Below, piece by piece: positions 18,560-62,338 of a stretch of 64,000 nucleotides of DNA. Numbering within the stretch: the first letter of the stretch is position 1; each line of letters starts with the position of its first letter. The notes beneath the pieces are model-generated. The model was given only the letters and a program-made list of their open reading frames with translations, had not been told where the DNA came from and ran no database searches. Position numbers and translations under genes: made by a program. The stretch is from Ulva prolifera (taxonomy: Eukaryota > Chlorophyta > Ulvophyceae > Ulvales > Ulvaceae). The stretch is from positions 2,728,001 through 2,792,000 of the forward strand of contig CM041196.1 in assembly GCA_023078555.1 (NCBI GenBank), in the 5' to 3' direction.

Positions 18560-21732
<3,173 letters not shown>

Positions 21733-24700
21733 TCATGTGCGCGTGGGGACCCCGCTGGCCGCCATGTGGGCCTTCACGTCGCCGATGGCGACCTCCTGGC
21801 GGTGGAAGATGCCGGCCGCGAGCGCCGCCGAGGCCGCGGTGCCGTCAAACACCTCCACGAAGTGCTCCGGCGCCCCCGCCCCGGATGACGCAATCACCGG
21901 TATGCTCACCGCAGTGGACACGGCTTGCACCAGATCCAGGTCAAAGCCCTGCACTCGGCATAGCGTCAGCGGCTTCGCCAGGTAGATATGCATCATCCAG
22001 GGGTCAGGGTTCAAAGTGCACAGGTTCCGATGTGCGCAGTTCAAGATCCCCGTGCGGCCCTGCACGGTCGGCTACAGTGGAAAGGTGAACAGGCACCGCA
22101 CCTGCCCCACGCCGTCGCAGTCGATGTTGTTCAGCAGGATCTCGCCCGCCCCGAGCTCTTCCACGGCACGCGCGAGCTCCACGGCGCCGATGTCACGCGT
22201 CTCCCGCCCGCCCTTGACCGTGCACTGCCACCAGCACCACGTTTCGCCCCCCGGACCCCGCGCGGTCTTCGGCTGCGTCAGCTCGTGCGGGCAGCCCTCA
22301 GGGTCCGCGACCCAGACACGCTTCGGGTCGATCGAAATCACAACCGCTTGCCGCCCGTAGTGTGTCGAGATCTGCTCGATCGACGTGCTGCCGGTCTTCT
22401 CGCCGGTCGCGCGCAGCTCCAGCGCCGCCTCGACGGCGTCGCCGCCGATGGACACCTTGTCGGCGCCGCTGCGGAAGTACTCCCCCGCGACCTCGAGCGC
22501 CGTGTAGCTGCGGCCGGAGGCGTCCGTGAGGCCGCGGATGCCGCCGCCGACCGTCAGCGGCACAAAAACGCCCTCCGATGACTCTCGCAGCACCTGCATG
22601 CATGCAGCCGCGCGTCCGCTGCGGCTCCTCTAGATGCTCCGTGCGTCTCCGCACAGCGCACGTGGCGGTGCTGACCGTGAGGCATTCCAGAAAGACGCAT
22701 GTGGTGGCACGATTCGGAAGATCTCGCCGAAAGGCAAGCCCCTTGATACACTCGAGAGCCTTGTGCTCCTCACGCTGCGCACCTACCCTCAGCTTCGGGC
22801 TGCAGCATGCACCCGCGCCGACACCGGACGCCCCGTCGATGAGACCTGCCGCCGCAGACGCAGCACAGCCTCTGTCAGCATATGCCAGGACAGGACAGCG
22901 CAGGCATCTGCTGTATCATCCCACACAATGACAAATGACGGTATCTTCGTATTTCCGCACCTCAAGCGATGCTTCAGGCCTGAGTTTGGTTGAAATTGCA
23001 TGCCAGCGAGGATGGCGTGGTGGACTCTCGTGTGGGCCAACGATATACACGAGCGCACGGACGTTGCACACACAGATGATGCATACCATCTATCACCGTT
23101 CAAGTAGCGGCCGCACCTCAAGCATCGGCAGGTCTTCCAGGGGGAGGTCCCTGAAGGCGGTAATGTTGAGGAAGGTGACCTCGTCGGCACCCCCGCTGTA
23201 GTAGTCCGCACACAGCGACACCGGCTTGCCGAGGTTGCGCACGTCCCCGGCGCCCTCCTTCTCGCGCACATCGTACTGGTCGCCCTTCGTGACCACGAGG
23301 TCGCCCGCGTCGTTCGCGCGCACGTCCAGGCACGCGATCACGCGCCGCGCCAGCCCGCCGGTGAACCCTGCAGCGCACGCGGGGGCCTTGGTGCCGGCAT
23401 GCGCCACGGGCGACCGTGCGGACGGGTGTCACTGCTGATTAGGCTAGATGGGGCGAGGGGGTGGTGCTGCGACACTGCTGATGTAATTCCGCCCAGTGCC
23501 CACACCGCGCGCTCATGTGACGCCACATGCCGTTCTTGCCGGAGGCACATAGTTCCCTGCCCCCGGCAGCCAAGCTCCCCATTCGCAAACGTCACCACGC
23601 TTGTGCCACTGTGCCGACCCGGCGGTTCCGGTCTTGTCAGGACCGATGCAAGGAAGGAGGGCGGGGGGTGCGCACCAGCAGGCGCCTCCGGCACCACCTT
23701 TGGCTCCGGCACTGCCTCGAGGTTCACGAAGTTGTCGAGCAGCTGCAGGCCGACGCGGCCCGACTTCTCCGGGTGGAACTGGCTCGCGTGCACGTTCCCC
23801 TTGTTCACCACCGCCACAAAGTCCTCCCCGTAGTGGCCGGTCGCGAGCACCCAGTCGTCGTTCGCGGCGTCCGGCACCGCGCGGAAGCTGTGCACAAAGT
23901 AGACGCGGTCGGTCGCAGCCGCCGCGGACAGCAGCCGCGACGGCCGCCGCTGCTGCAGCGTGTTCCACCCGATGTGCGGCACCGGGGCGCCGGGGGCCGC
24001 GGTGAACTCGCCGACCCGGCCGGGGATGATGCCGAGGCCCTCGACGCCGCCGTTCTCGTCGCCCCCATCAAACAGCAGCTGCAGGCCGAGGCAGATTCCC
24101 ATGAACGGCCGGTCGGCCTGCACGCAGTGGGGAGTCGTGCGGCACGCGCAGGGGAGCTGTTTTTTTGCTTGTGCTGGCGTCGAGCGCGGGGGTTCTGCGG
24201 ATGTGTGCAATAGGTGCTGTGTGGGGCTCTGCTGCATGAAATGCTGGCGGCGCTGAGGTGCCACGGCTGCTGCACATGGTGGATTCTGCTGAGACGGTCT
24301 GCCATGGGGTGTCCTGTGACCACATCTGGGAGGCTCTTCCGGCTGTCGCAGTGGCTCGGGAGTAGGGTCGCACAAACTAGCCACACAGGACGGCTGCACA
24401 AAAGGATTTATACATGATTCTTACAAGACAGAGAATCACACAGGAGGATTGCTTTACGTGAACACGAAGGCTACACTCATCAAATATGTACGAGGGCGAC
24501 ACAGAAGGGTAGATGTAAGGACAACATGGCAGCGGCGGCAACTGCAAAAACGGTGACTATGTGCACGGGCACGGGTCATCGAACGGTGGACCACCAGGAT
24601 AGACGTCAGAGCGTGAGAAACAAAGCCACTAAATGACGTAATCACCACGAGGCTTGAAAGCAGCAGCGGCATGGGTGCTGTGTGTTGAGTGCGGGCTGCG

Positions 24701-26239: not shown

Positions 26240-26313
26240 GGTCTTATAGCTCAGTTGGTTAGAGCGTGGTGCTAATAACGCCAAGGTCCTAGGTTCGAGC
26301 CCTGGTTGGACTA
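26240..26313 (+). tRNA. tRNA-Ile (anticodon AAT)
   Basis: A 74-base cloverleaf without intron or encoded CCA. The D stem (GCTC/GAGC), anticodon stem (TGGTG/CGCCA), seven-base loop CTAATAA with anticodon AAT, five-base variable loop and T stem (CTAGG/CCTGG) all form. Box A (TAGCTCAGTTGG) and box B (GGTTCGAGCCC) are good. The acceptor stem is weak: one T-T mismatch and two G-T pairs, so this copy may be decaying or edited. Mobile-element sequence starts at the next base. Confidence 0.88.
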
Positions 26314-27082
26314 TTTCGTCGTGTCATGACACTTTAGCACTTCAGAGCCTGTTTTGGCGTCGAAGCCGCGGTGCGGGGGCGGCGGCGGCGGGCGGGGGGT
26401 CGAAGCGGGGACCCCGGGGGCGTCGCGCGCGGCGCCGCGTGACGTGACGTGAGGGAGGCGCGTGGCACCGCGCGGGGCAGGTGACGTCGCGACGCACGAG
26501 GGCTATGGGATCGTTTTTGGAGAAGGCAAAAGGACCGACGGTGAGCGAAGCGAGCACACCCAGGCGACTCGTGGGACGTGGCAGGAAGATGCGGACGATC
26601 GCACGGGGCGTGCGGGCCGTGGACGTGCGCGCATGTGTTGCATGTACAGGGGAGCGGGATAAGGACGCGGGCGCGGCAGTGCACTACCATGGGGCGCGGA
26701 TTCGTACATGGAGATGGATATGGACGTCGACGCGGGGCGCGGCAGCGCGAGGCGTGGGCGTGACGTGGCAAGGATGCCCAGCGCGCGCGCACCGAGGCCG
26801 GCCGCTGTAACGGCCAGCTGCGGCGACGATCCTGCGGCGGTCGCAGAGGTACATACACCGCACTGGACGCGGGCGAGGCCCGGGGGGCCGCGGCGAGGCA
26901 CGACGGGAGGCGGCAGCTGCATGCAGCTGCAGCGACGCGACCGCGCGGGACCCGCGAGGCCTGCCGGATGGGGGCACAGCCAGGGATAACGGTGATAGGA
27001 CGGGGATAAGGGGGATAGGGCGGGGGTGGCCCAACACGACGGGCGCGGATGTTATCCGAAACAGCAGCCGCTCACTATAGGG

Positions 27083-27605
27083 GCGCCCAGGCCTCAGGCC
27101 GGCAAGCCCGCGGGCTCTGGGCGCGCGCGACACGTGGGTGGCACCGAGAAGGCGGGGTGACGTACGTGCGAGGTGGCCACGCGGGCCGGGCTCGGCAGGC
27201 AGGTGGCAGGTAGGCACGTGGATTGCAGGCAGCGTGCGGCAGCACGCAGGACGCGGGGCCGGCAGCGGGCGGCCACGCGCCTCGGCACAGACGTATCTCG
27301 AAACACGCCGCCCTGGGCGCGGGCGAGGGCCGGGAGGCGGCACCGGCGGGCCACGGCGGGCAGGGGCGCCTGCAGCGACGCGACCGCGCGACACCCCATC
27401 GCCGTAGGAGCGTGAACACGGGCGGGCTCCCACAACAGGGGGAGCTTATCCGGATCGAAGGGCAGAGACACACGGCTCGCAACAGCGGCGCCCAGGCCTC
27501 CGGCCGGCCGCGCCGCGTCCTCGGGGCCCGCGTGACATGGTGGCGGCAGCGAGAGGACGGGGTGACGTACGTGCGAGGCGGCCACGCGGGCCACGCGCGG
27601 CAGGC
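27083..27605. repeat. GC-rich subterminal direct repeats
   Basis: GGCGCCCAGGCCTC(A/C)GGCCGG occurs at about 27083 and 27487, and a GGTGACGTACGTGCGAGG(T/C)GGCCACGCGGGCC block at about 27156 and 27560, so a unit of roughly 404 bases is repeated with divergence. Confidence 0.7.
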
Positions 27606-27846
27606 AGTTATCCACGGCAGGCGTGGACGACCTCTGCAGCGGCGTGGGCGTGTGCGCGGAGTGGGGGCGAGGCGAGACGGGAGGCAGCAGCTGTGGCGCC
27701 GCGAGGAGCGGCCGCAGCCGATCGGAGCCCAGGTGGCACCGGTGTAACGGGGCGATATCGTCGACCGCTCGCACCCTCGTTCACAGGCGCGAGTGCGGGT
27801 TCGCGGACAGAGGGACGGACTGCATTCGCAGGGGGGGCGCGATTGC

Positions 27847-27853
27847 TATAAAA
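27847..27853 (+). promoter_or_regulatory. TATA box (TATAAAA)
   Basis: CTATAAAAGGGG, a near-perfect core promoter element in GC-rich surroundings, lies 355 bases before the first ATG of the large element gene. Transcription would be expected to start near 27875-27885. Confidence 0.65.
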
Positions 27854-28003
27854 GGGGCGACGCGACGGAGAGAGCGTGTGTACATCAGCCCGGGTCGCCA
27901 GCGACGGTGACTCGCAAGCAGAGTAGAGCAGCGCGGACGGGGTGAATCTGTCGTCAGACGGCATCTGCAGCGTCGAGCGACGTGCCCGGAACCCATCGAA
28001 CTG

Positions 28004-28083
28004 CCATCAGTGGAGTCGAGGTTTCAGTTTTTGTTTCCTCTCCCGTTCACGCTTTGCGAAATTGTGTCCATCAGTGGAGTCGA
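28004..28083 (+). mobile_element. Tiny LINE 3' fragment with 16-bp target-site duplication
   Basis: The 16 bases CCATCAGTGGAGTCGA occur at 28004-28019 and again at 28068-28083. The 48 bases between (28020-28067) match the 3' end of the LINE at about 54826-54870 (GGTTTCAGT, TCTCCCGTTCAC, then CTTTG). It is a strongly 5'-truncated retroposition inside the probable 5' untranslated region of the large gene. Confidence 0.8.
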
Positions 28084-28207
28084 AGCGTCGCGCCGTCGTT
28101 AACGCGAATCGTCGGTCCTACACGCCATCGACCGGCGTCAGCCGGTAGCACGCGGGCACACGACACGCCGCCCCAGGGGGCACCGCGACGGAGAGAGGGA
28201 GGCCGGG

Positions 28208-31200
28208 ATGGCCAGCGACGACGCCGGCATCGCCGCGATGAGGTGCGTTTATTGTTAAAAACGTTCGGTGTTTGCAGCGCGACCCGGTGCTCGCGGCTTG
28301 TGCACGCGTGCGTACGTGCGTGCCGTTGACTGTCGGCGGTGTGGTCGTGCTCGAAGCGTATCTCGAGATACCGGCCGTGCCCTCGAGGGGGGTCGATTCG
28401 ACATGCATGGCGGTGTGTGATCGGGTGGGTTTGTACGTGTTGCTGTTCATTCGGATGAGCTCGTCAAGAGTCGGTGTGGGTATTTGTCTTCTTCCGGGAC
28501 ACCCGCAACCGCAGTCGCAAGCGCCCGGGGGGGCAGGTGCGCCAGTGGCGCGGCTCCGCTGACCAGGCGTAACAGCTGACGGGGCAGGCGGCGCGGCTCA
28601 GGCCCGTGCACGCGCACCGCACGCGCAAGCCTGCGCACATGGTCATGCGTGGGCGTGCCGCCGACGGCGACGTGTCTGTGCAGGGCACGCTACGAGCTTA
28701 ACCCCGCGGGCGAGGCGCTCGTGGAGGAGATGGCCCGGAGGGGCATCACAGTGGAGCGCGTGCAACAGGCACGTGCGTGCGTCAATGCCGCTGCAGTGCG
28801 AGCCGGCGAGCGCGGGGAGCCCTCGCGCGCTGCCTTCGCTGCGGCCGGCGGCGTCCCCCTGCCGACATTGTCGCTGCCAGCCCTCGACGACTGGCGGCTG
28901 CTGCTCAGCCGTCACCACCGCTCCTTGGCGGGGCTGGAGGCTGCAGAGCGCAACGTTCTACGGTTTGCGCGCGCTCACTTTGCCGTCCTCAGCACACGCG
29001 GGCTCGACACCGACCATCTGTTGCGGCGAGACACGATGAAGGTGTGGGCAACCTGCGCCGTACAGGCACTAGTGGCATGGGGCCACCCCATCCCCGGCCA
29101 GCGTGTGTCCGGCGCTGACAGTGTGAGCTCGTTTGCAGCTCGACATTTTCAAGGTCATCGAGTCGTGGCGCACAATGGCGAAGGATGTGTTCACTGCGAC
29201 CCTACACTTGATGCTGTACACGAAGCAGATCGGAGCCCGGGGGACGCTCGACAGCTATGAGCATGCCATCAGGTGCTTGTGCAGAGCGTACTATGCGGCG
29301 GCGGATGAGGTGCGTGTCCGAAGCCTGCTTCTTGTTTGTGTCGGCCTGCAGCCGGCACCAGTGATCCTGCCTGTCGCGCAGGCGCACATGCATGGTGCCT
29401 GGACGCCGCGCGGGTCCTGCGCCAGTCCCCGAGGGAACGTGGGCTGGCATACTGACCTGCAGGGGTGGTGTGCAGGTGGTGGATCAGCCGAGCCCATTTC
29501 AGCGCTTCCTGCCGATCGTGAAGAGCATTCGGATGTACATCAAGGCCTCGCCGCTCGGCGGCACTCGCAAGATTACCCCCCTCACCCAGGGCCAGATCAT
29601 GCGCGCAGTGGAGTCGATGTATGTCGGGGGCTTCGGCATGATGCAAGTGCGCCACCATGCCCTCTCCCGAAGCTGCTTTGCGGTCATTGTGGCTGCGGCG
29701 CAATGCTAAATTGTATCGGCAGCCTTGGCCTGTCAGTCAGCATGTCCAAGGGCTGCACTGTGATGTCGGGCACGGTGCCCGAGTGTGTGCGCGCTACAGT
29801 AGTGTGCCAGCCGTTCTGGAAGACATCCTTGTGCTGTGCTTCTGTCCTTGGCTAGCCGTTTCATAGGAGGCCACGTCTCACCCTGTGTTGATGTTTCCAG
29901 GCGCGCGTGGTCTTTGCCTTGACTGCGATCGCTGGCCTGCGCACCACATTCTTCCAGTACTGGCGCTGGGAAGACGTGGAGCTGATCAAGGTCCCCATGC
30001 TGCAAGGCGAGGTCAAGGATGCGACGGAGGAGGTGCTGCACAACAGTGACACGCAGGTGTGGCGCCTGCCAGTGTGGCTCGTGGGATTCCGCAGTGACTG
30101 CCGCTTCCGCCGCGGCTGTCGGGGCTGCAGCACGTTTGCTCTCCTGCCTGTTGCCTTGCTGGATATTGCTGCGGTGTTTTTCTGCTGCGCACCCCGGCCT
30201 CTGGCGTTGCTGTGGTTCGGCCGCGTGTCACGTCGTCGCTGGCGGGCACCCTGTGTGCGTGGTGCCGCTACAAGTGTTGTGGTGCCGCTATCAGTGTCGT
30301 GGATGTTTGTGATCTTCCCTATGCATGCTGCCGCTGGCAGCCTGCGCTGCTGCGGCAACTGCCGTGACGGAAGGCTAACCGGAGTGACACTGTGCAGATG
30401 GGCTTTGCCTTTGTCAGCCACCACGCTGTCAACAAGTGCCCCAATCAGTACGGGACACCGGTGCTGGCGCTCGACCCGACGGGGCAGCGCATGTCGCCCT
30501 CCATGCCGGTTGTCGGCAGCCTCCTCGTTCAGCTAGGGCTGGTGATGGGCGTGTATGATGCGGAACAGATCACGCGCCTGCCGTACAACGCGCCCCTCCG
30601 CCCGAAGCCGCATGCACAGCATTGGTGTGCATCTCTGCTTCGTTGTATGGCTCTGCGTGTGACGTAGTGTCCGCATGTGGTTGCGCTGGCATCATGCATG
30701 ATGCAGTGCTGCTTCTCTCGCTGTGGCGTGCTAGCGCTGAGCCCACAGATGTTCACATGTGTGACCCGCTGTAGGTATGTGATATGCACACAGCATGACC
30801 TGATGTTCCTGCCATTCATCAACGTGCCTGGCGTCCGCATTTCCTGGCTGGTCGCGATGTGCGGCCTACTGGCCGAACCTGAGGACGGCGCGGAGCCGCA
30901 TGGCCGGGGCGTGCGAATGGGACCTCGCTCACTGCGGTCGTCTATGGTGCTGCGCATGGTCCTCGGGCGCATCACGTCGGACCGCGCGCCTGACGAGGTC
31001 CTCATGCGCCACCTCGGCACGTGGGTCCAGAATGCAACGGCTGCAGCCATGGTGCATTACTTCTCCAGCCGCGGCGCGGCAGCAACTCTGGCTGGCATGG
31101 TGCGCACTCCAGGATTTGATCGAGGGCTGTAGGCTGCTGTGCAAATGAGCTCAACACTGGCTGTTGATGGTGTGGTAGACTGCCTACGCTCTATGCAATG

Positions 31201-34200
31201 GGGATGCACCACTGTGCCACTGTGGGCACCTGTCGCTGGCCGCTGCAATGGGTGCATGTGCTTGTGTGCCGCAGACAACGGTTGCCGTGCTTGTTGCTAG
31301 ACAGGCGCCCGCGGTGGTGACGGCAGCTCGCCGTGCAGGCACAGGCCAACATCACGGGCAACGCTCAGGGAATGGAGCATGCACGCACGATTGCGCGCAT
31401 CGGCGGGGATGCCGTTGGGCCCAGCCTACTGGCCACCGCGCAGGAACAGCCCGAGCGCGAGCTCTTTCTTTTCATCGCGTTCCAGAAGTCCAAGGACGGC
31501 GCCGTGCAGCAGGCTGTCCTCACAAAGATGTCCAAGCTCCTTGCGGACCACGTTGGGGGCCACCTGGCCGGCAACGGCGGGGCGGTCGCGTCGGTGTACC
31601 ATCGCATCATGCGGAAGGTGGCACCGTATCCGGGGAGGTGGCTCCTCCAGAGCGCGATGCCAGCCCACCGCCTCGCCCAGCTCCCAGGTGCAGCACTACA
31701 TCTCTGTGCGCGTGTGTTGCCATCCCGTGTTTCTGTGAGTCCACCTGCTCTGCTGCATCTCTGCATGCGTGTGTGTTTTTGTGCTGTGTTCGGCCCGTCC
31801 GCCTGCTCTGCTGCAACTCTGCATGCGTGTGTCGCCATCCCGTGTTTCTGTGAGTCCACCTGCTCTGCTGCATCTCTGCATGCGTGTGTGTTTTTGTGCT
31901 GTGTTTGGCCCGTCCGCCTGCTCTGCTGCAACTCTGCATGCGTGTGTCGCCATCCCGTGTTTCTGTGAGTCCACCTGCTCTGCTGCATCTCTGCATGCGT
32001 GTGCGTTTCTGTGCTGTGTTTCGGCCGGTCCCCCTGCTGTGCCGCACGTTTGCACGTGCGTGGTGTTGTGTTGATTGTTTGTGCGTGCGTAAGGTTTGGG
32101 GTCACGGTGGTGACAGTGGCACCGTGATGCAGAGCGCGCCGCCGAGGTGGTCGGCAAGCTCACGCGTGCGGTGGACGCGGCGCGCAGCGTCAAGGACAAG
32201 TGGCTGAAGGGCGCCCTGGCTGTCACCGGCGTGGACAAGGCGGGGCTCACTGTCGAGAAGCGGAGGACGGAGCTCGCACCTCCGCGCACGACTGTCGAGG
32301 ACATCGAAATCGACTTCCCGCACGGACCGTTTGGCGAAGACGGGGATGACGCCACCTCGGACAGCGCCTCAGACAGCGCAGACGTGGAGATGCTGGACTC
32401 CGACGGTGAAGATGCGGGGCCGATGGATGACACGGAGCAGGACCGCGACGGTGAGCTCGCAGAGCTCGTGCAGAGCACCATGCAGCTCGGCGATCTTGGG
32501 ACCGCCGACGAGGAGATGGTTCACGACGCGCTGGAGGAGGAGCTCAGGAGCGTTGAGGAGCAGCCGGCGCCTGTCGCCGAGGGCGGCGCAGACGGGGCCA
32601 CGGACGCCGGCATGTCGTCGCTCGTGCCCCCCCCCGCTGCAGAGGCCGCTTCCGGAGAGCCAGAGGGCACCCCGGCAAAGACCATCACGGCTGCCGGGGA
32701 GACGCTGCACCTGCACCTGTCGCACCGCGCGGCGCTCGGCGTGCTGTCGAACAGGCAGTACCACGTGCACACGCTCACCAAGCATCCCGCGACCGGAGAA
32801 TCTGTGGTCCCGTATCCGCCCGGGATGCGGGTGCCCCAGGGCGACCCCGTCTTTGAGACGGACTACGTCACGCGCTGGGCGCACAGCAGCGGTGAGGAGT
32901 TGCTGCAGGAAGTGCGCGACGTGCTGGGCGGGGTGATCCCGACCGTGCCGGCGCGCTTCAGCAACATGTCGAAGGCCGTGAAGAAGCTCTTCGCCGAGAC
33001 GAGGATGTGCCTGGTCCAAGGCTGCTTGAATCTGGCATGCACAGAGACGGCGAACTTCAAACTGCATGCATGCACCGACCACCTGAAGGGGGACATGCGC
33101 GTGAAGGGCACGGATGAAGACGTCCGCCTGTGCACATCCTGCCACGGGAGTCGCAGCGTGGAGGAATTCCGCGAGGGCCAGGGCAGCCAGATCACCGGCG
33201 GCCTCTGCCATCGGTGCCGCATCGATCGCCGGAACAAGGCCATCATCCGCCGGAACAAGAAGAAGGGGACCAACAAGCCGACCCTCCCTCTGCCTGCGCA
33301 CCGACCGCCGTCCGCGACCGAGCTCGAGAACGGCAAGGACATCGGAGGCGCATACATCGAGGAGCGTCGCAGGGCGGCGCAGCGCAATGCTCTTGCTGGC
33401 GCGCGCCCCGGTGAGACCATGCTGGAGCCGTTCCTGGTGCTTGCAGCGCACGACCGGGACCGTGAGGGGCACGAGCGCCAGTGTGTCCGCGTGGGGTGCC
33501 AGAACGACAGCAGGAGCGACAGGCTCATCGCGACGCTGTGCAGAGCGTGCTGCCAGGTGGGATCTCTGGTGTGTGGTGGCCATGCATGACCTTGCGCTGG
33601 CTGTCCCATCGGTGCTGCATCTCTGCGTGTGTGTGTGGGGTTGCTGTGCTGTGTTCGGCCTGTCCGCCTGCTCTGCTGCATGTGTCTGTTCCTGCTATGC
33701 ATCAACTGTAGCTAGTGCATCACAGAGAAGTGTCGCTGGTCTCATGTCACACGAGTGGACGCGCATGCGTGTGTGTGGTGCAGAGCGTGCGGGGGAGGCA
33801 CTACGCCCTCGTGGCCGTCATGGACGTCGACGGCGACGCCACTGGCGAGCTCATGTTCGTGAGGTACTGCAGCGGCTGCTGGAAGGGCCTCCCACTGCAC
33901 ATGTTCCGCACCGGCGTGGGGCAGTGCATCCGCTGTGTCAAGGGCGACGCCGCATTCCGCCTGCGGGCAGAGTCCACGCCACGCCCGGAGCGAGCACTGG
34001 ACCCCGCCACGGACGATCTTCAGCATTCGACACCTGCCACGGCCCTGATCATGGACCACGCCTATGGCCCGGGGCTGTGCAAGGCCAAGGGCTGTTGGGA
34101 TCCTGTGCTTCGACATGGCAGCGGTCAGCGCAACGAGACGCGCCCCCTGCCGATGTGTCTCCGCCACATCAAGGTGCACACCTCTCACTTGTGCGTGCAC

Positions 34201-37200
34201 ACAGCCGCCTGCTCCTAGAACCTGGTCAGCTGCATGCCCATGCAACGCGTGTGTCGTGTTGAATGGGAGGTAGACAGCAGACGGGGCCATGCATATGCTC
34301 TGCCGACATTCGTACCCGTGTCGGGCTGCTGCGAATGTATGCGTTGCATCCTGTGTTATGTAGACATGTCGCAGCTTAATTTCTGAGGCCACAGATGTCG
34401 CCGCTCTGCACGCTCGGTCGTGTGCAGGCATGGTATGTGAGATCCGAGAAGACGGGGCTGCTGCAGCGCTGGTGCTCTGGCCATGAGCGCTGGGAGCACC
34501 CTGACGTCTTTGGCGGATTCTGGCATGCCTGCCAGAATCGGCTCAGTCCGAGCCGCCGCGCCGAAGCAGAGGCGATTGCAGAGCGCATCGCGCGTGCACG
34601 CGCAGATGGCACGCTTGACGGCGCCCCGCCCGCGGCCGCTGCGCCTGTGCCCAGGATCACCGCCGAGCCCGCGGCGATGCCGGCGGCTGCAGCTGTGCAT
34701 GCGGTCGACGAGACTGTGGAGGAATGGAGGCCGGAGTGGGGCCGGCAGACCGCCGTCGTTAACGGCTACAACGCGTGCAAACAGGTCAAGGAGTACCTCG
34801 GCACGGAAGGCGCGATTGACTTTGTGGAGATCATCCGGGGCAGCAGGGCTGGCAGCGGCGATGATGACATCGCGGCTGCAGTGACCGCACTGTACCAGAG
34901 GCTGGCACAGACGACGCAGCCGGCCGCGTCGGCGATCGGGTTCCCGGCAGCTCCAGCACCGGCGCCGACGACATGTGTGCGCTGCGGCGAGCCCACAGCA
35001 GCGGGCGCCTTTGTCGGCAAGTCAGTGTGCATCCTATGCGCCGCATCGGGCATGGAAAGCCTGACGCTCGTGGACGTCGGCAGTGCCCTCGAGTCGGGGA
35101 TGCTGTACGGAAAAGGTGCGGCCTGTCTTGCGCTGCATGATCTGAGGGCGTAAACGTATCATGTGTCAGCCTCCGTGTTGTGGTGTACTCTCGCAGACTG
35201 CTGCTGTGTACCTGCCGCATGTGTGCAGCCGGCGGCTCATGTGCCATGGACCGAGTCCACGGCCATGCCTGTCATAGTGTTAGCTTTCCGTTGCAGGGCG
35301 GAGGGTCAGGAGGCAGGCCACCCTGAGGGACCCCAAGCTGTCCGCGACTGAGGGGCTGACGGACGCGCACGCGCGCTTGGCCGACGAGCTGAGGAAGCGG
35401 AGGTCCGTCAGCGTCGCCGGCGTCGCAGGTGCCCCTGCGATGAAGCGCCAACGGCACGTCAAGAGCCAGTCGGCCAGGAATCAGCACCAGCGGCGAGTTG
35501 TGCATGACGGCCTGGTGCTGTCGTGGCGTCCGGAGGAAGGTCAGGAACCGCCCGCAGAGGCAGGTGTGTTTGCTGCTTCTGCCTATCGATCGCAAGGCTG
35601 TTGCGGCACCGGCACGGCGCTGTTGCAGGAACCTGATGCCTGGTGTTGTGTTCATGCCTGCATGCATGCGTGTGCAGCCTGCCGCCCGGCCCGCATGCAT
35701 GTCCGCGGCTGGTCTGCTACAGTACTTGCAGCATGAGTTTTGCTCTATATCGATGCCGGATTCTGCTGTGTGTTGGTTGTCATGAGTCGGCGCTCTGCCA
35801 TAACCTACACTCTGTAGTACAATCGCCCGCTGTGCAGGCCCCGACGTCGAGCTGCCAGAGGCCCCAGTGGCGACGGACGCAGACCTGGCCATGCTGGCCG
35901 CCGCACGGGCGTGCAAGGCGCACGGCCTGGAGTGGCTGGCTGACACCGATTGCACGCGGGCCGCGATGGAGGGCGTCGCGGACAAGCTGCCTCAATTCGC
36001 AGCAAGGCATGGCAGGAACAACTTCGCATCTTTCGCCATCGTCGACGCCGCCGGCACTCGGCCGGTGCTGCGAGCTCGCAAGAGCGTCTCACCACCGGGA
36101 TGGCAGCAGGTGTGGCTTGTCGTCCTCGCGTCGTGTATGTACCCCGTGCCCTGTGCCCTGTGCCCTGTGAAGCGGCTGAACCGGCATGTCGAGTTGATTC
36201 GGGTGTGCCTTTTTTTGTTGTGTTTATCTATTCCAGCTCACTCCTCTGTGATTATCGTGCATGTGCTTGACACCGCCGGGTGTCGCTGAGGCTGCAGCCT
36301 AGTACATCTGCCTGCCCGGTTGCTATGCACCTGCTGCGGCTGCAGCCTGCATCTCCAGGCATGAGAGCCAGGTTCTGTGCGTGATGCAGGTGCTCTGTGC
36401 CCGCCCGCCAGGTCTGCGGGCCCGGATCACGGACGACTCGGACACCGGCAGTGACGGATCGTGGTTCGGCTGCGTCGGCGTCCATGTGCGCGGCGAGAAC
36501 AAACCGCGCAACGTGAAGAGATTGTGCGGCGAGGTGCTCATCCGAGAGCGCAGGCCCCGCCGCGTTGCGGCAGGGTCGATCGGTCAACAGCCCGACCAGT
36601 ATGCCGCAGTGCAAGTTGCGCGCGACGCATTCGCGCTGCTCCTCGACAGGCTGCACGCCCTGTTCACAGCGGCGCCGTTGATGCCTGTGCAAATTCTGTC
36701 GCTGACATTCCTCGAGAACTGCAAGGGTCTGGTCCCCGCCGTCCTGGATCGACACCAGCCGACGCTGCTGATTCCGGTGCATCTCTACACTGCGACGATC
36801 GCCCACCACCGGCACAAGCACGGCGCCGACAGCAACGGCAGCGTGCGTGAGAAGACCGCGCTTGCCCACTCCATTGGGTACTGCACCGTTCGACTCGCCT
36901 GCAGCCTGCAGGACGCCTGCGAACCCCGTCCGCTCCCGGACTCGCTCTGGGGGACTGTGCGAGGGGCTGCTGTCGCGACCATGGTCGCGTTCGACACCCG
37001 GGCGTACTCGGAGTATGTGTCCGGGGCGACCCTCTTCTGTGGCCAAGCGAAGCGGGACCTCCCCGGACAGATCCTGCTGACGCATCACACGGCCATCCTT
37101 TCCGGACTGGTGATGGCTGGCGCTGTGGGTGGTGGGCCGACGACGGCAGAGGCGCTGCGCGATTTCGTCGCAGGAGGCTCTGCCCCCGGCACCGGAGTCG

Positions 37201-40200
37201 TGCCAACGCGTGAGTATGCGCAGGAGCCTCGCAGCGCGTCCAGCCCCTGCAACGGAGCAGCCGCCATGTCCGGCGAAGCAGGATCATCCCGAGCTGCACT
37301 TGCACCCGACGCCTGTGGCGGCTCGACAGCAGCGGGATCTGATCGCATCGCGGCGCCGACGGCTGCCACAGACGCTGACCTCTCCGCTGCTACGGTGCTG
37401 ACCGCCGCGTCCATCAAGCAAGACGCGGCGGCCATCGACGACACTGACCACCCCAGGCTGGAGGGACACGTGTTTGAGATCTCTTCCGATGACGGGGCGA
37501 TGGACACAACTGGACAGCCGCCTTATGCAGAGCACCCGCCCCACCCTGCGCAGCAGCCCGCAGCCGCTCAGCCCGCCACCGCAGCGCAGCCCCCGCTGGC
37601 AGCCGCACCACCCGCTGCTGTGGAACAGGCGGCGGCTGCTGCGCCGGCTGCCGTGAACCTCGCTGCAGCAGTCGTCGGCGCCGCGGGTTTGAACGCGGCG
37701 CCTCAGCACGTTCAGCAACCGCCCCCGCCCGACACCCCCGGGCCGTCTCTGAGTGACATGACAGCGTCGCAGCACCTGCTGAACATCAACAGCTACAAGT
37801 ACGACCTGACCGCTGTGCCAGCGGAGATTCGCGCTGCAATCAAGACCGTTCGAGCTGAGGTGCGTGCGGCTGCCTCACTGTGGCTGTGATTGCGTTGCTC
37901 TGAACAGATGCTTGCTATGTACTGGACAGCCTTCTGCTATGTGGGTGTGGTCACGAGTGTAGGCCGTTCGATCTGAAGCTCCTTCTGTGGGGTGACCTCT
38001 GTGTAGGCCCATGACCCCCTTAGAGTTGCATTTCCGCGGTCTCTGTGAGCCGGCAGCTCTAGATTATTTGACGGCTATGGAAAATCGATTGCCTAAAGGC
38101 TGTGGTGTGCGTGCTACAACAACGGGCTGTGCAGGACATTTTCACCGCCCTGGCAGATGGCCCCTTCGATGCCGTGATTGTCCTCGGCTCTGGAGGCAGC
38201 GGCAAGACGATCGTGGGTCGAAAGATATTCGATCTCGCGAAGCAGCGCTACGGCGAGGACGGGGCGGCGAGATGTGCGAACAGCGGCAGGGTCGCCGTTA
38301 ACGTGGGCTGCACGACGTTCGCCCGCCGCCTGAAGTACGGCTCGTACACGCCGCATGCGGAGCATGCATACAGCAACATCACAGCTGCAGAGGAGGTCGC
38401 GCAGATCCAGATGCTGATCGCGGAGGAGGTCACTGCCGTGCCAAACCGGCTCCTGCAGCAGCACCTGGGGGCGCGCACGGCGGCGCGCAGGTCTGTGAAC
38501 CTTGCTCACGAGCGCCTCCAGCAGCAGCCCCCCTACACGATCGAGGGACCTCTGGGGGGCCTCAAGCTGATCGCCAGCGGCGACCACCTCCAGCAGATTG
38601 TGGTCACAGGGAGCGTCGGCCGCGTCCAAGCCACGGGCGTCCCTGTGCCGTTCGTGCCGCCACAAGGCACCGGTCGACGCATCTGGGAGCTCTCTGAGCT
38701 GGCAGACGCCAAGGTGCTCGTGCTCGTGGTGCACGGGAACCACCGGCTCCTCGGCAGGATGCACGAGCTGCACCGCACTGGGTGCGACCTGTGTATTTTG
38801 CTGCCGTTCAGATTATTCCTGTGCATGTCGCTGCTGTCTCATTCCTGTGCGCTGATGGGTGTTAGGACGCGTGCCAAAGTGCTGTTCCCCGCATGTGCAG
38901 CTGCTACGCTCGTGCAGCCACCATGTTTGTCTGGTAGCCGTTCATGTGTGGCTCTGCAGTGGATGGACACATGTGATTCTGTCGTTTGGCCTCTGACTTC
39001 CGTGTTGGCTCACCTGACATGCATGACGCTGTGAGTTTGGCCACGCAGGCAAGACGGCCACATCTCTGAGGACTGCATGGACCTCCTGACCGCCCGCGTG
39101 GAGTCGCTCGACGACCCGCAGTGGTTCCTCGTCTTCGTCCGGCCGGCGGGGTACCCCGAGGGAGCGCCTCCGGGCCACCCACAGCTGCCGTTCTGCATCG
39201 TCGCCGTCGCGACCTTCGCCGAAACAGAGGCGATCTTCTACAATCACGTGCGGCGGCTGCAGTCCTACCAAGACGCGTTCGGGCTGCTCCCGGCGCCCGA
39301 GGAGCATGAAGCCGCTGGCATCAAGATGGGGCACCTAGCGGGCAGCGTGCAGGAACGTATCGTGCAGATCACATGCGTGCGAGAGAGCAGGTTCCTTTTC
39401 AGGTACGCCGTCTACAGCAAGTGATTGTATGACATGGCCGACTTGTTTTCACGAATGCATGTCATGCATGCCACTGCGCCTCGTTTAGCATGGCGCCGCC
39501 GCAACTACAGTAATTGTGAATGCACTGAGATTGGTCGGTAGAGGGCGCACCGTCCCACATGACATGTGTGTATTGTGCAGCACGGACGGGACATGCGCAA
39601 TGGCACGGCAGCAGCTCGCTCAGGCCAAGGTCTGGTCGCGCCTTGTGCTCGCCCGGAAGGAGCCGCTCATCACCACCCACGCCACGGCGCGGCTGTCGCC
39701 GGGCATGTACGCAGTGATCAAGACGTTCAAGCTGGTGTCACGTGCAATGGTCATTGGCCATGTGTGGCAGGAGCTCAACGTGCACATGCGTGACTGCTCC
39801 AGGCGCAGGGGATTCTCCCGGACGCAGGGCGTTATCGTCGACGGCATTCTGGACAAGATCGTGCCTGATCTCGTGACGGAGGCGCTGCTGCCGCTGGAGC
39901 ACAAGGACAAGCCGGGCCACTATGTGATTCCGTACGGGGACACGTGGGACGGCGTCAGCAGCCGCGTGCACACGGGGGTGCCCTTCTTCCCAATCGCGGT
40001 CGTTCTGCTTGAAGAGAACCCGGCCGACAGACTGAAGCCGATGCCGACCTCGGTGCATGTCATGTTCCCACTGAAGCCGAGCGTGGTGCTCGCGGGGAGC
40101 GAGCTGCTGAGCTGCAGCTTTGGGCCCGGTGAACACCGGGTGCTCATGCATGCGCCCGGAGCCGATACGCTCGGCGCCGACGACGTCGTCACCAGCAACA

Positions 40201-40448
40201 TCATTCTGATGTCGCGGGTGTCGGCGATGGCGGACTTTGCCATCACTCCGGCGACGTCACTGAACAGCGAGGTGTTGCGGCATGGTGCGGACATGCGCAG
40301 GCTGCGAGAGCGTGTGGCCGGGAGAGGGGGGCGATGGGTGATGCGCCATGTGCACATGGCGCGTGACGGCGCCGCGGCCCCCGCGCAGACACATCCCAGC
40401 GGCAGCATGGACGGGCTGGGCGACGTGGTTCTGGAGGATGAGATCTGA
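28208..40448 (+). CDS. Giant tyrosine recombinase - zinc-finger - PIF1-like helicase protein
   Basis: Seventeen exons read in one frame: 28208-28242, 28684-29041, 29139-29309, 29476-29646, 29901-30056, 30398-30624, 30775-31099, 31339-31687, 32133-33556, 33784-34173, 34428-35115, 35297-35563, 35838-36109, 36390-37859, 38135-38781, 39049-39402, 39581-40448; 8172 bases, 2723 residues. Residues about 130-470 look like a tyrosine recombinase: AIAGLRTTFFQYWRWEDVEL (Arg 259), RSLRSSMV (Arg 427), RHLGTW (His 452, Trp 456) and VHYF (Tyr 468). Residues about 610-760 are acidic. Three Cys/His modules lie at 890-1240 and a CVRC-CILC pair at 1385. Residues about 1880-2065 are Ala/Pro-rich. From 2102 there is a P-loop (VLGSGGSGKT, Lys 2125), LIASGDHLQQ and VLVVHGNHR as in PIF1 helicases. 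The last 400 residues are unrecognised. Least certain junctions: exon 6-7 and the start of exon 15. Poly(A) signal TGTAA at 40682-40686. Confidence 0.72.
31720..32040 (+). repeat. 115-bp tandem repeat inside an intron, about 2.8 copies
   Basis: The CCATCCCGTGTTTCTGTGAG landmark recurs at 31720, 31835 and 31950. Each unit is itself two related halves around CTGCTCTGCTGCA(T/A)CTCTGCATGCGTGTGT. The array fills most of intron 31688-32132. Confidence 0.9.
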
Positions 40449-41456
40449 GATGTGTCGACCGTTGTGGATCATGAGATTTTTTTTTACTGCATGAGGACTC
40501 TGGCTTCGTGCCTATTGATAGCTTTTGTTTAGCTGCTTGCAGCTGTCCGCCAGCGAGGCGCCTGTTGATGCATGGGGTGAGGGTGTACAAATTGTTGTTT
40601 TCTAGCGAGATCTCAGACCCAACTGCATTTTCCAGTGTTCCTGATTTGCTCCAGTTCTCTGCCAGGCAGCAGCCCGATTTCTGTAATGGTTTCGCGCCGT
40701 GTCCCTTTCACTTCGTAGCTGTCATGTGTTGTGTACAGTGAAAGTGGACAACTGGATTCGATGGTGCTGACTGTGCTGACTGCTAGTAATGGGCTAGTAA
40801 TGGCCTAATCGTATCTGGACTGGTGCTGTTGGTTATATGCATACTTGGCTGGGGTCGATATCTCGACTGGTGCTGTTGGTTGGATGCATACTTGGTTGGG
40901 GTCGCATGTGAACATGATGCACTGACCTCGACGGTCTTGGCTGTGCTGACTGCGTTTCGGAGTTTGACCCGGTGAAGGATCCTGCTGATGGGGTGTCCAT
41001 ATCGTAACTTGTACTGTTGGCCTGGTGACATGTGGCTCTAACCAGACCGTCCTGGTGATCTGGAGGTCACCTTTGGGAGCCTCGTGAGTGACTAACACTG
41101 CAGTGAAGACGAGTCACTGCAGCTGCGCCACTCATTCACGGGGGACGCAACTCCTGCGCTTCGCGCTGCAGTGTGACCGCTAGCTGACGTGGTCACACAT
41201 TGGCACGCCCCAGCGCGACAGGTTCGCCAGATTCCTGGCCACAAAGACTCTACGATTTGTATCCATCACGATTCTTGCTGTGAGGGTCCGTGTGGAGGTG
41301 TGCTTCGCCATCGCAATAGGGCGAAACGCAGGTGCAGCCGCGATTGGGACATATCAGCTTAGCTGTACGAAATACCTGGCACTATTAAATACAAGGTAGT
41401 TTTTGCTGCTCATCGACGGTTTATATGCTTGAAGGCGTACCGCAGCAATTGCTCCC

Positions 41457-41690
41457 TGCTGCAGCAACGAACAGTGGCCTTGCACCTCAGCTGCGCGTCG
41501 CTGCCACTGTGTCACATGCTGTCAGTCCCCTATCACGTCCCAGCTGCGAGCTGCTACAGCTGGGGCCGCGACAACTGCTGCAGCAACGAACAGTGGCCTT
41601 GCACCTCAGCTGCGCGTCGCTGCCACTGTGTCACATGCTGTCAGTCCCCTATCACGTCCCAGCTGCGAGCTGCTACAACTGGGCCGCGAA
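41457..41690. repeat. 119-bp tandem duplication
   Basis: A block starting TGCTGCAGCAACGAACAGTG at 41457 repeats nearly unchanged from 41576, ending at about 41690. No gene is seen in 40449-42620 otherwise. Confidence 0.9.
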
Positions 41691-43280
41691 ACAGGCTGCT
41701 GTGAGGCGGGCGCAGATATACACTTGGGGAGCTACGCAAAACGCCGTGTCAGCGACGAACATGTCTTTGATAAGATTAATATTTATTATCAGCGCAAAGC
41801 AATTATATGGACAGCCTGCCGTGCCCTGTACTGGCGCTGGCCTGATACCGTTGATCGGAGCAGAATGCTGCATCCATGCATTCGAGCAGACATTGTCGCC
41901 GCCACCGGGTGTTCTTACACAAACGAAACAGATTCTGTGTGATCTTGCCACGGCGTCTGGGCAGTCCACAGCGTTGTGCTCTGCAATGCAGTGTGCGACT
42001 GTGGTGCGACACAGCTGCCGCGGCTGCACGGATGTATGCATGGATCTCCCGCGGCGCGCCCGACGCACCACACTGTGTGAGGACGGGATTAGTTCGTGGC
42101 ACACGATACAGCAAAGATGACAAACAGTAACAACGCTCCCGGGATTAAGCACAACACTTGTATACTCTTTACACTGAAGTGGCAAAGGACAAAGGGCAGT
42201 CCAAGCCTTATATAGTCTTTGGCCTAAGTGCCGTGTAAGCCCTAACAGTGCAGAACATGAGAACGCTCGACAGCTGATTATGAAATGTCGTTCGACGCCT
42301 CTTTTTGCCACAAATATGTCATGAAATTTTTACATCATATGTTGTTGCTGATTGACTGACCGGGTTGGGGGGGCGTCACAGGCTGTGCTGGCTCGTTCGC
42401 GCCACGAGGACGTACCGCACCACCCTTGGGCCCTCCGCGACAGTAACTGCATAATGCTATATGACTTCTCAGTCATCAGTGAGATGGGCGCAGTTTGATT
42501 TCTCCATGGCGCCCCATTTTTAACGCTTTCGCGTTGTTGGGACCTCTCCTTCAACCCTCGTAGCCACCCTTGTTCGGCTGGCACAGGCTTCTGCCTCGTC
42601 GCTCCAGGGTCGGCCACATACATAAGTTATGAAATAAAACGTTGAAGTTGAGGGTTTTTGTTTGTTTTTCGTCCTTTGGCACGCTGACAACCACGATTGT
42701 CAAACGTCGGTGCATGGTGCGTGGCACTACTCTGGCACCCCCCTAGCCACTGAAGCCTGCTCACCGTTTACGGACACGCCGAGCGTGCAGAACGACAGCA
42801 CACGCATTGTAAAGCGATGGGCAATTGCTCAGGCGATGAAGCGTGATTGTAAGGGACAGGTGTACATATGGGATCTTCAAATCTGATGAATCAACTGGGC
42901 AATATTGAGGGCCGCGGTTTATGCATAAATCGATTCATGGTCATGGCCATGGCCAGGTGCTATCCTACAAACCATGGCCAGGTGCTATCCTCTGCAAAGA
43001 TCCTCCACATCCTGCTCTTAAGCAACGGCATCAGCAGCAAGGCCCGGGCATACAGAAGGCAGTGGCGAACCTAATTATAATGGCGGAGAAATATGTAGCA
43101 ATGAATGGTGTTGAGGTCGTGACCGCTCGTGCCGCCAGTGCAGCTGGCGGGTGGTTGCAACTGTGCATGAATGCGCGCACGCACAACACACCACTTGCAC
43201 ACGGTTCACAGACATGCTTGGACATTCCCGCATGCCTGCAGGGGTGCGCTGCCAGTGCAGACATGTCCCTCGTGGTACAG

Positions 43281-44104
43281 CCAGCATGCACAGCAGCTAG
43301 TTGCATTCCTCAACAGGCTTGCTGATGTGGCTGCAGGGTCTGGCGCGGCCTCTCGGCGGCGTTTCCTGGAGAACGCAATGCGCGATCTCTCGACGACGCT
43401 CTGTCGTGCAGTGGCGCGCCAGGTGCGCGCCGCAGCCCCGCTGATGGCACGTCACTCGGGCAAGGCAGTTTTGGCGGGACTCACAGTCCCGTCTGATGAC
43501 CTCTCGCCGCTTACAGGCCATCCGGCCTGAATTGTGGGGTGCCCCTCGGGCCCCGTCCGCTTGACGCCACCGACTTGTAGCCTCTGACTCCGGCTACGCC
43601 GGGTCCGATGGGTGTGCGGGGTGCCTTCGTTGGCATGTGCAGGGACTGCGGAGACGGCTTGGGCGGTGCATTGTCCTGGGTGCGGTGCGGCGTGGGCCGG
43701 CGAGGCTGCGCGGCGGTGTGCCGGGCTGGCGTGGTGTGCTGTGGCTCGGTGGGGTGGGGGTGGGTCTTGGGGCTAGGGCGGCCCCCGGCAATCGGGCGGC
43801 CATGATGGGCGGCCTCAGGCGGCGGTGTGTTGGGTTTGGCGCTGTCGTGCGGCGGCGGGCGTTGTGGTATTGGTGGTTGTGATGTTGTGAGTTGGCCGTG
43901 GGGTCTGTGCGTGGGTGTGTGGGTTTTGGTTTGTGGGTGTGTGGGTGTGTGCTTGGCGGTCTGCGGATCTGTGTCTTTTGATGCGCCGGTGGTGGGTTTC
44001 CTGGGCGTGGTGGGTGTCGCGTGCGTGCGTGTCTGTGTGTTTGCTTCGTCTGTTTGCTTCTTTCGCGGTGCTGCCCGCCTTGCTGCCTTTGTCCTTGTAA
44101 CACA
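43281..44104 (+). mobile_element. LINE 3' fragment: end of ORF2 plus 3' untranslated region
   Basis: The frame to the stop at 43530 reads AFLNRLADVAAGSG, then FLENAMRDLSTTLCRAV, similar to FVGQLGDVAAASG and ALRVLSVSLQRG in the LINE at 54 kb and to the C-terminus of plant/algal non-LTR retrotransposon ORF2. A G/T-rich trailer follows and stops at CCTTGTAACACAG (44092-44104). Confidence 0.6.
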
Positions 44105-44118
44105 GCAGCTAGAAGGAA

Positions 44119-44142
44119 GGGGGGGGGGGGGGGGGGGGGGGG
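44119..44142 (+). repeat. Poly(G) tract, 24 bases
   Basis: Homopolymer directly after the LINE 3' end; a similar 22-base G run is at 44539-44560. Confidence 0.95.
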
Positions 44143-44171
44143 TTAATTAAGCAGCGTGCCGTCAGACGTAG

Positions 44172-44382
44172 GTTTAGCACTTAAGGGCCTCTTTTTTGTC
44201 GTCTCATGACTCTTTAGCACTTAAGAGCCTCTCTTGTCGTCGAAGCCGCGGTGCGGGGGCGGCTGCGGCGGGCGGAGGGGTCGAAGCGGGGACCTTGGGG
44301 GACCTTGAGGGACGCCGCGCGCGGCGCGGGGGCGCATGGGACGTGACGGGGGCCCGAGGAAGGCGTGCGGTGCTTCGCGGCA
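44172..44382 (+). mobile_element. Left-end fragments related to the large element
   Basis: TTTAGCACTTAAG(A/G)GCCTC occurs twice 37 bases apart; the second copy runs into the same CGAAGCCGCGGTGCGGG block as 26351-26400. Sequence stops where the short element at 44383 begins. Confidence 0.7.
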
Positions 44383-44842
44383 GGTAGCGTAGGTTTAGCA
44401 CTTAAGAGCCTCCTTTTTGGGGGGGTCCAGGCGGGCCGGGCTGGGGATTGGGGATTGGGGGTCTGGGTTTGCGGGTGGGCAGGATTGTGTCGGATGCTGG
44501 GCGGGGTGGGCTTTGCTGGGGGAGGCTGGGGCCTCCCCGGGGGGGGGGGGGGGGGGGGGGTTGTTGGTGGCTCGGTGTGTTCAAGTTGGGCTTCGCGGCC
44601 TCGGCCGCGTGTGCTTTCGGGGCTCTGGCGCCGCGCTTGTAGGCGGGGGGTGAGTGCGGCTGGGCGTGCGGTTGTGGGGTGTGGGGGCTTGTGTGTGGTC
44701 GTGTGGCTGTGGCCGGCGCAGGTGCTGAAGATGCGTGCGTGTGATGATGTGTGCTGCGTGTGGCTGGTTGAGTGGGTGTGCGGTTCCTCTGGTTGCTGCT
44801 CGCGGTGCTACCTGCCTTGCGTTCTTTGGCCTTGTAACACAG
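44383..44842 (+). mobile_element. Short non-autonomous element, copy 1
   Basis: About 460 bases from GGTAGCGTAGGTTTAGCACTTAAGAGCC to CCTTGTAACACAG. It shares its start with the left-end motif of the large element and its last 50 bases with the LINE 3' end at 44104, so it looks like a composite or SINE-like unit. No coding capacity. Confidence 0.65.
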
Positions 44843-45100
44843 AAATACCGTATTTGCAGTGACTGCAAACAGAGCTCCCCCGATAACTCCCTGTGTGTAA
44901 CACACGCACATGTATTGACTTGAGGTTGCCACATGTTGTACGTCAAATCAGGGTTCGAGGCTGCACTGCCGTGGTGTCCTAGATCCACTGCACATCCACA
45001 TGTACTCATTCGGTATGAGGCTGCATACGGCTCTGGAAGAGTTGTACATCAATCTACACGCCCTATTGGATATGGCTATGTACATATATCGGCATATGTG

Positions 45101-45300
<200 letters not shown>

Positions 45301-45434
45301 TATGTACGACTGCTTGTGAACATCTTCATATCCGTGACCATGTGCACCCCGTGCCCGTCTCGGCGCAGACACGCATGCTGCCACAGGCCTAGGAGAAAGC
45401 TCATCATAGGCGTTCCGCCACTAGCGCTTCTCCG

Positions 45435-45492
45435 AGTCCTGAGCCCGGCACTGCTCCTAGCAGGAGTCCTGAGCCCGGCACTGCTCCTAGCA
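45435..45492. repeat. 29-bp tandem duplication
   Basis: GAGTCCTGAGCCCGGCACTG plus CTCCTAGCA occurs twice in R1 but once in R2 (about 62057-62085). Confidence 0.9.
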
Positions 45493-46315
45493 ACCTGATG
45501 CTGCACAAGCCCTCTGCGCACGCTGCGAAGCTCGCAGATGAACAGGCTCGACCGCCACTCCACTACCGCCAACACCGCATACACACATCACACGTGGAAG
45601 AAAACTGCTCGATCGGTCTCCCACGCTACGGATCTCCCTATTCTGAAAAGCTACAACCTCTCCCACATCATGGATCACAAGGCCTGTACTACACTGTGTT
45701 GGTAAGGTACCCCCCCGGTCCAACATCCGGTGACAGTGGACACCAGTGCAGGCACACATCAACAACTTGCTGTGATCAATCGATTGAAACATACAGTTTG
45801 GCCACCAGAGCAGCACGCGTCGCTCGCAACCGCAGGCCTGCGGCGACGGCCCCCCTGCCGCGCGGCCGCCTGTAAGCCCGATGGCAATCCTACTAGTACT
45901 GCAGTCATGGACTCAACGTTAGTACTGGTACATAGCGTATACGCATCGATCCTCTGAACAAACTTCAAGGGGACCTCGAAATTCCCCGCGGGGAGCACCA
46001 GCACGCCGAGAGCCTCACAGCACAGTCAACCAGCTCTAGTGGCTGCAGTGTGCTGGCGCTCCACGTGCATAAGCTCATCACTGTCACATTCCACGCATGC
46101 ATGCATGCATGCATGTCGACGAACCGCCGGCACCCCACATGCCGCGCTGACCGGCCCGCCAAGCAGCGGCCGCGCCAATCCGCGCATTTGTCTCGAGATA
46201 GAGCGCCGCACACTTATGTATGTTAGCGCCCTACACAGGACGCCGTGTGTTGCTAGCCGCAAAAGCAGCTACCTAACGTGGCAGCGGCATGGACGCGCCC
46301 CTGCCGCCCGGCGCT

Positions 46316-62304: not shown

Positions 62305-62306
<2 letters not shown>

Positions 62307-62338
<32 letters not shown>
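62307..62338. repeat. Poly(C) tract, 32 bases
   Basis: The same position in R1 (about 45711) has only seven C, so this tract expanded after duplication. Confidence 0.97.

Follow-up and report, generated by a model that had tools for sequence, protein, structure and literature searches.

Movement by tyrosine recombinases (YRs) is already known in eukaryotes. In bacteria and archaea, elements that target tRNA genes insert at a fixed base at the tRNA 3′ end and form tandem one-way arrays, and Helitrons combine an HUH Rep nuclease with a PIF1 helicase. Here, we analyzed a stretch of 64,000 nucleotides from the green alga Ulva prolifera (GenBank assembly GCA_023078555.1, contig CM041196.1, positions 2,728,001 to 2,792,000 of the forward strand; hereafter, the window, in whose own coordinates features are given), which carries on its plus strand a mobile element of approximately 19 kb (26319..45356). 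The single recognized gene of this element (28208-40448) encodes a predicted protein of approximately 2,750 residues, which starts with a probable, very divergent tyrosine recombinase, continues with SBP-like zinc modules and ends with a weakly matching PIF1-like helicase. Judging from sequence comparisons, the element probably represents a hitherto undescribed eukaryotic group, namely tyrosine-recombinase-like DNA elements that carry their own helicase. No such element came up in searches of the open-licence PMC literature, and an earlier description in subscription papers, preprints or Repbase is possible.

The element has neither the defining features of Starships, DIRS-type elements or Helitrons nor the YR-only make-up of Cryptons. 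As in Helitrons, compared by description only, a large transposon protein ends C-terminally in a PIF1-like helicase; however, its chain carries a recombinase-like N-terminus and SBP modules, and no Rep domain was matched in any piece of the chain by Pfam. The tRNA-targeting elements of bacteria and archaea likewise insert at a fixed base next to the 3′ end of a given tRNA gene and form one-way arrays, whereas the gene in the window is eukaryotic and intron-rich and the insertion lies 5 nt outside the tRNA; no tRNA piece was noticed at the right end by ARAGORN, no dedicated search having been made. Cryptons are likewise eukaryotic DNA elements with a tyrosine recombinase and without reverse transcriptase, and have non-autonomous, internally deleted copies (PMC3212892). 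They have been defined as DNA elements with a YR domain only (PMC4157794). In some groups, the YR is accompanied by a GCR1_C domain or by a C48 peptidase encoded separately, and the main text of the paper describing these groups never uses the word helicase (PMC3212892). The chain in the window adds SBP and PIF1 domains, which sets it apart from Cryptons by description. Starships, too, are large elements with the recombinase encoded at their 5′ end, with preferred insertion sites and with nested insertions, but their captain is described as a separate gene followed by cargo (PMC12289983), whereas the window holds one chain and no recognized cargo gene: none of ten open frames outside the gene had a Pfam match above the cut-off, 2 weak matches (E 0.31 and 0.054) falling far under it. 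An earlier note on this locus, made from the sequence alone, had remarked that tyrosine-recombinase transposons (Cryptons, DIRS and fungal Starships) are not known to encode a PIF1 helicase in the same protein. DIRS, PAT and Ngaro elements share the tyrosine recombinase and a terminal sequence repeated near the other end (PMC4157794, PMC5633606). The window element differs from them in having no match to reverse transcriptase in the chain pieces (all but small seams) or the ten other frames, and none to RNase H or methyltransferase in the pieces searched, all by Pfam. Finally, Zepp and Zepp-like long interspersed nuclear elements also form clusters by insertion into existing copies and include truncated elements (PMC8226300), but Zepp arrays are described as mostly 3′ ends produced by retrotransposition (PMC8226300), whereas arrays of the window type keep left (5′) ends.

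A single conserved gene

A splice search with a codon model, performed independently of the exon list of the earlier note, arrived at the same structure of 17 exons and 16 GT-AG introns between an ATG at 28208 and a stop at 40448, with consistent phases across all 16 introns, no internal stop and a single terminal stop. The TATA box that had been reported ahead of the ATG is a TATAAA at 27847..27852, 361 bp upstream. Based on the splice search and homology, the exons on the plus strand are located at 28208-28242, 28684-29041, 29139-29309, 29476-29646, 29901-30056 and 30398-30624 (exons 1 to 6), at 30775-31099, 31327-31687, 32133-33568, 33784-34173, 34428-35104 and 35310-35563 (exons 7 to 12), and at 35838-36134, 36346-37859, 38135-38781, 39049-39402 and 39581-40448 (exons 13 to 17). 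The one long chain of the earlier note was retained, its length of about 2,723 residues becoming 2,746 amino acids once homology shifts intron 10 to 34174-34427. The exon 13/14 junction (36135-36345) is imprecise by some tens of residues, with homology pointing to an earlier donor and a later acceptor. Approximately 65 stops would be expected in 8,241 coding bases of the same composition, a figure which is indicative only because the splice search itself avoids stops.

Independent proof that the gene is real comes from its conservation. A sister copy at C6:5853192-5864722 is collinear with the window chain, block by block, from exon 2 to near the end, at 57-76% amino acid identity depending on the stretch, with exon 1 not found there by tblastn and 1 in-frame stop in the helicase part; furthermore, genome-wide DNA matches to divergent copies fall on exons and mostly skip introns. 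The ratio of nonsynonymous to synonymous substitutions (dN/dS) between the window and this sister copy ranges from 0.12 to 0.31 in all 8 stretches measured: 0.17 in the recombinase exons, 0.12 in exon 8, 0.28 and 0.23 in 2 zinc stretches, 0.26 in exons 12-13, 0.27 in the first part of exon 14, and 0.31 and 0.29 in the helicase. These values were obtained by Nei-Gojobori counts on tblastn-aligned codons, excluding the low-complexity residues 602-779 and 1901-2124, and are rough since the synonymous distance is about 1 or more. For the recombinase codons, comparison with a far copy on C8 gave a dN/dS of 0.39 (192 codons). The single gene of the earlier note is, accordingly, one conserved gene under purifying selection in the 8 stretches measured. 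The absence of the poly(A) word TGTAA from the gene was also considered as evidence for a single transcript and discarded, since 0 against 2.0 expected is not significant; the minus strand of the gene likewise has 0, and the C6 sister copy has 4.

Domain organization of the predicted protein

The probable tyrosine recombinase corresponds to exons 2-7 (28684..31099, plus strand), with a box I containing R259 in exon 5 and the candidate catalytic residues R424xxR427, W456 and Y468 in exon 7. As a yardstick, we used 9 known tyrosine recombinases of lambda and Escherichia coli K-12. In the hhalign comparison, the window segment AGLRTTFFQYWRWEDVEL was aligned on XerD TGLRVSELVGLTMSDISL, placing R259 opposite XerD R148. 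None of 120 column shuffles reached the observed score, either for the whole recombinase part or for box I alone; the HH-probability was 5.3% in the shuffle run and 49% with box I cut out alone. Control alignments of the helicase (E 0.16) and of exon 14 (E 0.83) matched the same 9 proteins at unrelated places. Among the loci compared, R424, R427, W456 and Y468 are kept in all 7 distinct versions of exon 7 and H452 in 6 of them, and R259 is kept in 8 of 9 versions of box I, the ninth not covering the residue. The farthest version in which the candidate residues are kept, the paralog at C8:4052k, is 40% identical. We regard the N-terminal domain as a probable, very divergent tyrosine recombinase, as the earlier note had proposed; box I and the kept residues speak for that proposal, whereas neither library matches nor the C-terminal half of the domain (see below) lend it support.

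The central part of the chain contains SBP-like zinc modules, of a plant type, in exons 9-11 (32133..35104, plus strand), 2 of which were identified by Pfam and the third, between them, by eye. Both Pfam matches (E 0.011 and 0.0031) are under the curated cut-off, and a profile of the modules compared with the PDB had SPL13A (E 0.0012) as its sole match up to E 10. In 4 sister copies, SBP scores of 27.0-27.3 against a cut-off of 27 were obtained only when in-frame neighbours were added, and strong SBP matches, with 62.5 and 60 bits, were found at 2 loci outside the element, which points to a green alga or a plant as the host. Exon 14 (36346..37859, plus strand) encodes a conserved domain, its N-terminal part being the stretch under purifying selection reported above, and a low-complexity linker. 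It has no Pfam match and no credible PDB match; an RNase H-like reading of this exon, made by eye, was supported by neither and was abandoned.

Exons 15-17 (38135..40448, plus strand) encode what appears to be a PIF1-like superfamily 1 (SF1) helicase. The Pfam PIF1 profile scored 26.2 bits in a six-frame search (cut-off 25.9) and 21.6 for the spliced piece, and the top match in a PDB search was a solved PIF1 helicase, 5o6b (E 0.11), consistent with the P-loop PIF1-like helicase which the earlier note had placed at the C-terminus. This part carries GSGGSGKT, AEE, SGDHLQQ and MSRV, which we take to be SF1 helicase motifs, with motif V degenerate by eye. Stronger PIF1 matches are present elsewhere in the genome, at C1:9224139 (52.9 bits) and C1:9216609 (33.4 bits); no tie to the element was seen, and these are possibly host PIF1 genes or Helitrons.

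A multicopy mobile element and its mosaic copies

The gene lies in a multicopy mobile element, with at least 138 gene matches in the same 88.9-Mb genome (38 of 53 candidates scored). Its left end (26319..26350, plus strand), recognized from shared copies and a genome census, bears the terminal motif TCGT..TCA.GACACTTTAGCACTT.AGAGCC. The motif around AGCACTTAAGAG has 29 matches in the genome against 1 for a reversed control; this number includes internal or duplicated copies but not the left end of the window element itself, which has 1 mismatch. Other copies, whose flanks are unrelated, start from the same left base. A copy with an internal deletion, at C6:5645296-5650284, in which window positions 26320-28316 are joined to 42287-45356, terminates at the same right-end base. 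Since this copy carries both ends, it defines both for the window element, the right one less certainly than the left; together, these copies bear out the mobility that the earlier note had suggested. An internal direct copy of the left end is located at 44191..44319 on the plus strand (78% identity without gaps; 89% over 111 bp), with further motif copies in the right part at 44176 and 44397.

More distant copies retain the order of the domains. At C8:4,052-4,064 kb, matches to the recombinase, SBP and helicase parts follow each other on one strand as in the window, with amino acid identities of 28-45%, and the same order recurs at C6:5,727-5,738 kb with approximately 43-70% identity; therefore, the 3 parts have long travelled together. 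Copies on C10 and at C1:2797k are mosaic with respect to the window: in the parts compared, they are 97-100% identical in amino acid sequence from exon 9 on, whereas the recombinase part is 81% identical (dS approximately 0.5) and exon 8 82%, and they bear the other type of left end. The recombinase and the end motif seem to have been exchanged together in these copies, as would be expected if the recombinase reads the end.

Several other features were observed in and around the element. A dispersed repeat of approximately 805 bp (43301-44107) in its right part, shared with the deleted C6 copy, is found in at least 36 other places on many contigs (40 of 3,499 candidates scored). A partial copy of the right part and right flank (42621-45938), 91-95% identical, is located at 60783-62552, which from the alignment is a local segmental duplication. 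Long CA and TA microsatellites are found at 20348-20584 and 45173-45303, the TA one lying approximately 50 bp inside the right end. The left neighbour (22075-24420, minus strand) is a fragmented gene of the HisF/HisH type (Pfam His_biosynth, 5.9e-17; GATase, 2.7e-15).

Insertion beside tRNA-Ile genes and one-way arrays

The earlier note had named the gene and its 2 end domains and had passed over the SBP modules, the element ends, the tRNA site and the directional arrays. A tRNA-Ile(AAU) gene (26240..26313, plus strand; ARAGORN and Rfam) immediately precedes the element. Used as a query, it has 3 near-identical gene copies in the genome: the one in the window and the one at C10:1190k are each followed by a left end that starts exactly 5 nt after the last tRNA base, whereas the third, at C2:629k, is empty. 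The left ends at the 2 occupied genes are of 2 different types and the upstream flanks of the 2 loci share only 11-12-base matches; because these flanks are unrelated, the 2 insertions at the same base are independent. Among 12 loci searched with Rfam for RNA polymerase III-transcribed or structured RNA genes beside left ends, matches were obtained only at the 3 tRNA-Ile loci, including the empty gene. The tRNA site is, thus, a preference rather than a rule, since the other left ends examined have no structured RNA gene. No empty site with both junctions was found.

Copies also cluster in arrays with a uniform orientation. The motif is on the plus strand in 14 of 14 cases on C6 between 5.63 and 5.91 Mb (2 being internal copies) and in 4 of 4 on C2 between 10.85 and 10.86 Mb, and on the minus strand in 3 of 3 on C9; 4 of 4 on C1 between 2.77 and 2.80 Mb are also plus, but 3 of these belong to internal or duplicated copies of the right part. 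The exon matches on C6 and C9 run in the same direction as the motif, and a separate group at 10.55 Mb on C2 is on the minus strand. In 10 places, a left end lies directly behind a copy that is interrupted or has ended, always in the same orientation. Two left ends of the second type, at C2:10859016 and C2:10859254, lie 238 bp apart, again in the same orientation. In green algae, Zepp elements are reported to form centromere clusters by insertion into existing copies (PMC8226300), and retroelements of Dictyostelium, including DIRS-1, are found near tRNA genes or in centromeric sequence (PMC5633606). By analogy, a centromere-like role of the U. prolifera clusters is possible.

Alternative interpretations

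Several observations weigh against the interpretation of the window element as a tyrosine-recombinase-like DNA element with a built-in helicase. For the recombinase part, no credible match was obtained in profile searches against Pfam, NCBIfam, PHROGs or the PDB (in Pfam, none up to E 1, nor up to E 10). The comparison with the 9 known recombinases, at E 0.011 for one comparison, has an HH-probability of only 3.8% (E 0.022 and 2.2% with a two-sequence alignment); the C-terminal half with the candidate nucleophile scores no better than shuffles, 17 of 120 reaching its score; and the first position of HxxR, a histidine in the 9 yardstick proteins, is an arginine in the window. In addition, the match to a helicase is weak, the right end is defined by 2 copies with no third right end seen, left ends vary by 1-3 nt, and the right parts of interrupted targets are absent in the 3 cases tested, namely copy 2 on C6 and the targets at C6:5831k and C2:10859k, for which the search covered exon 15 and beyond. 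Variable left ends and lost right parts are not explained by simple precise integration; both might stem from copying insertion, or from deletions that arose later between direct repeats.

Some of these observations would fit an N-terminal part that is not a tyrosine recombinase, the motif being coincidental and the element being moved by another enzyme. We consider this unlikely: while the lack of a family match in the searched libraries, the low HH-probability and a C-terminal half not above shuffles all fit such a scenario, as do variable left ends and lost right halves, which are unusual for tyrosine recombinases, it leaves unexplained a box I beyond all 120 shuffles and motif residues kept at 40% identity. 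Exact targeting beside tRNA genes and one-way arrays are, moreover, typical of tyrosine recombinases.

It is somewhat less likely still that 2 or more adjacent genes, for a recombinase, a zinc protein and a helicase, were joined by chance in the splice model. Some of the more distant copies do have apparently fewer introns and long open frames for single parts, but in the C6 sister copy exons 2-17, including middle ones without known domains, occur in one order, purifying selection acts on each of the stretches measured, and the phases fit across 16 introns.

A decayed DIRS, PAT or Ngaro retroelement that lost its reverse transcriptase is very improbable, even though the left end repeated near the right end is somewhat like split direct repeats and green algae do harbour PAT-like DIRS elements (PMC8226300): in the pieces searched, Pfam matched neither a reverse transcriptase nor an RNase H or methyltransferase, and the element is not decayed, because its multi-exon gene is under purifying selection where measured. 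Large DNA viruses and polinton-like viruses can encode tyrosine recombinases and helicases. Both terms appear in PMC4642659 and PMC12220804. Yet an endogenized fragment of such a virus is the least credible origin, given the 16 introns, the lack of capsid or polymerase matches in the searched frames and the lack of a relative of either the recombinase or the helicase part confirmed in IMG/VR (68 and 44 pattern stretches, none confirmed, with 2 short peptide patterns per scan, which far relatives could escape). Bacterial and archaeal genomes, also scanned with 2 short peptide patterns, yielded 82 pattern stretches, none of which was confirmed.

Possible mode of transposition and implications

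The interpretation favoured here, a so far undescribed group of DNA elements that join a tyrosine-recombinase-like part to a helicase, can be extended, tentatively, to eukaryotic DNA transposons that would form a new superfamily, with a site-specific tyrosine recombinase and a helicase of the replicative type combined in one protein and guided by SBP modules. Such elements would insert at a fixed base beside tRNA-Ile genes, in the manner of bacterial islands, and build one-way arrays, perhaps at chromosome-specific (centromere-like) sites, by copying insertion in which the left end of a newcomer replaces the right part of its target; we regard this extended version as possible rather than likely. 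Under the favoured interpretation itself, the zinc modules and the recombinase would bind the terminal motif, and the recombinase would cut and rejoin the ends through a covalent tyrosine link, probably with a circle as the intermediate. The element would then insert at its preferred place, 5 nt past the tRNA-Ile gene, or into earlier copies, and the helicase may open the DNA such that the element is copied rather than just moved.

If correct, the presence of a recombinase and a helicase in one chain would widen the tyrosine-recombinase class, and replicative movement powered by such a recombinase could then be examined in a eukaryote. In an alga, the exact tRNA-Ile site would serve as a natural genomic landing spot, for which the empty third gene is a ready control, and the growth of such clusters could be studied in the one-way arrays.

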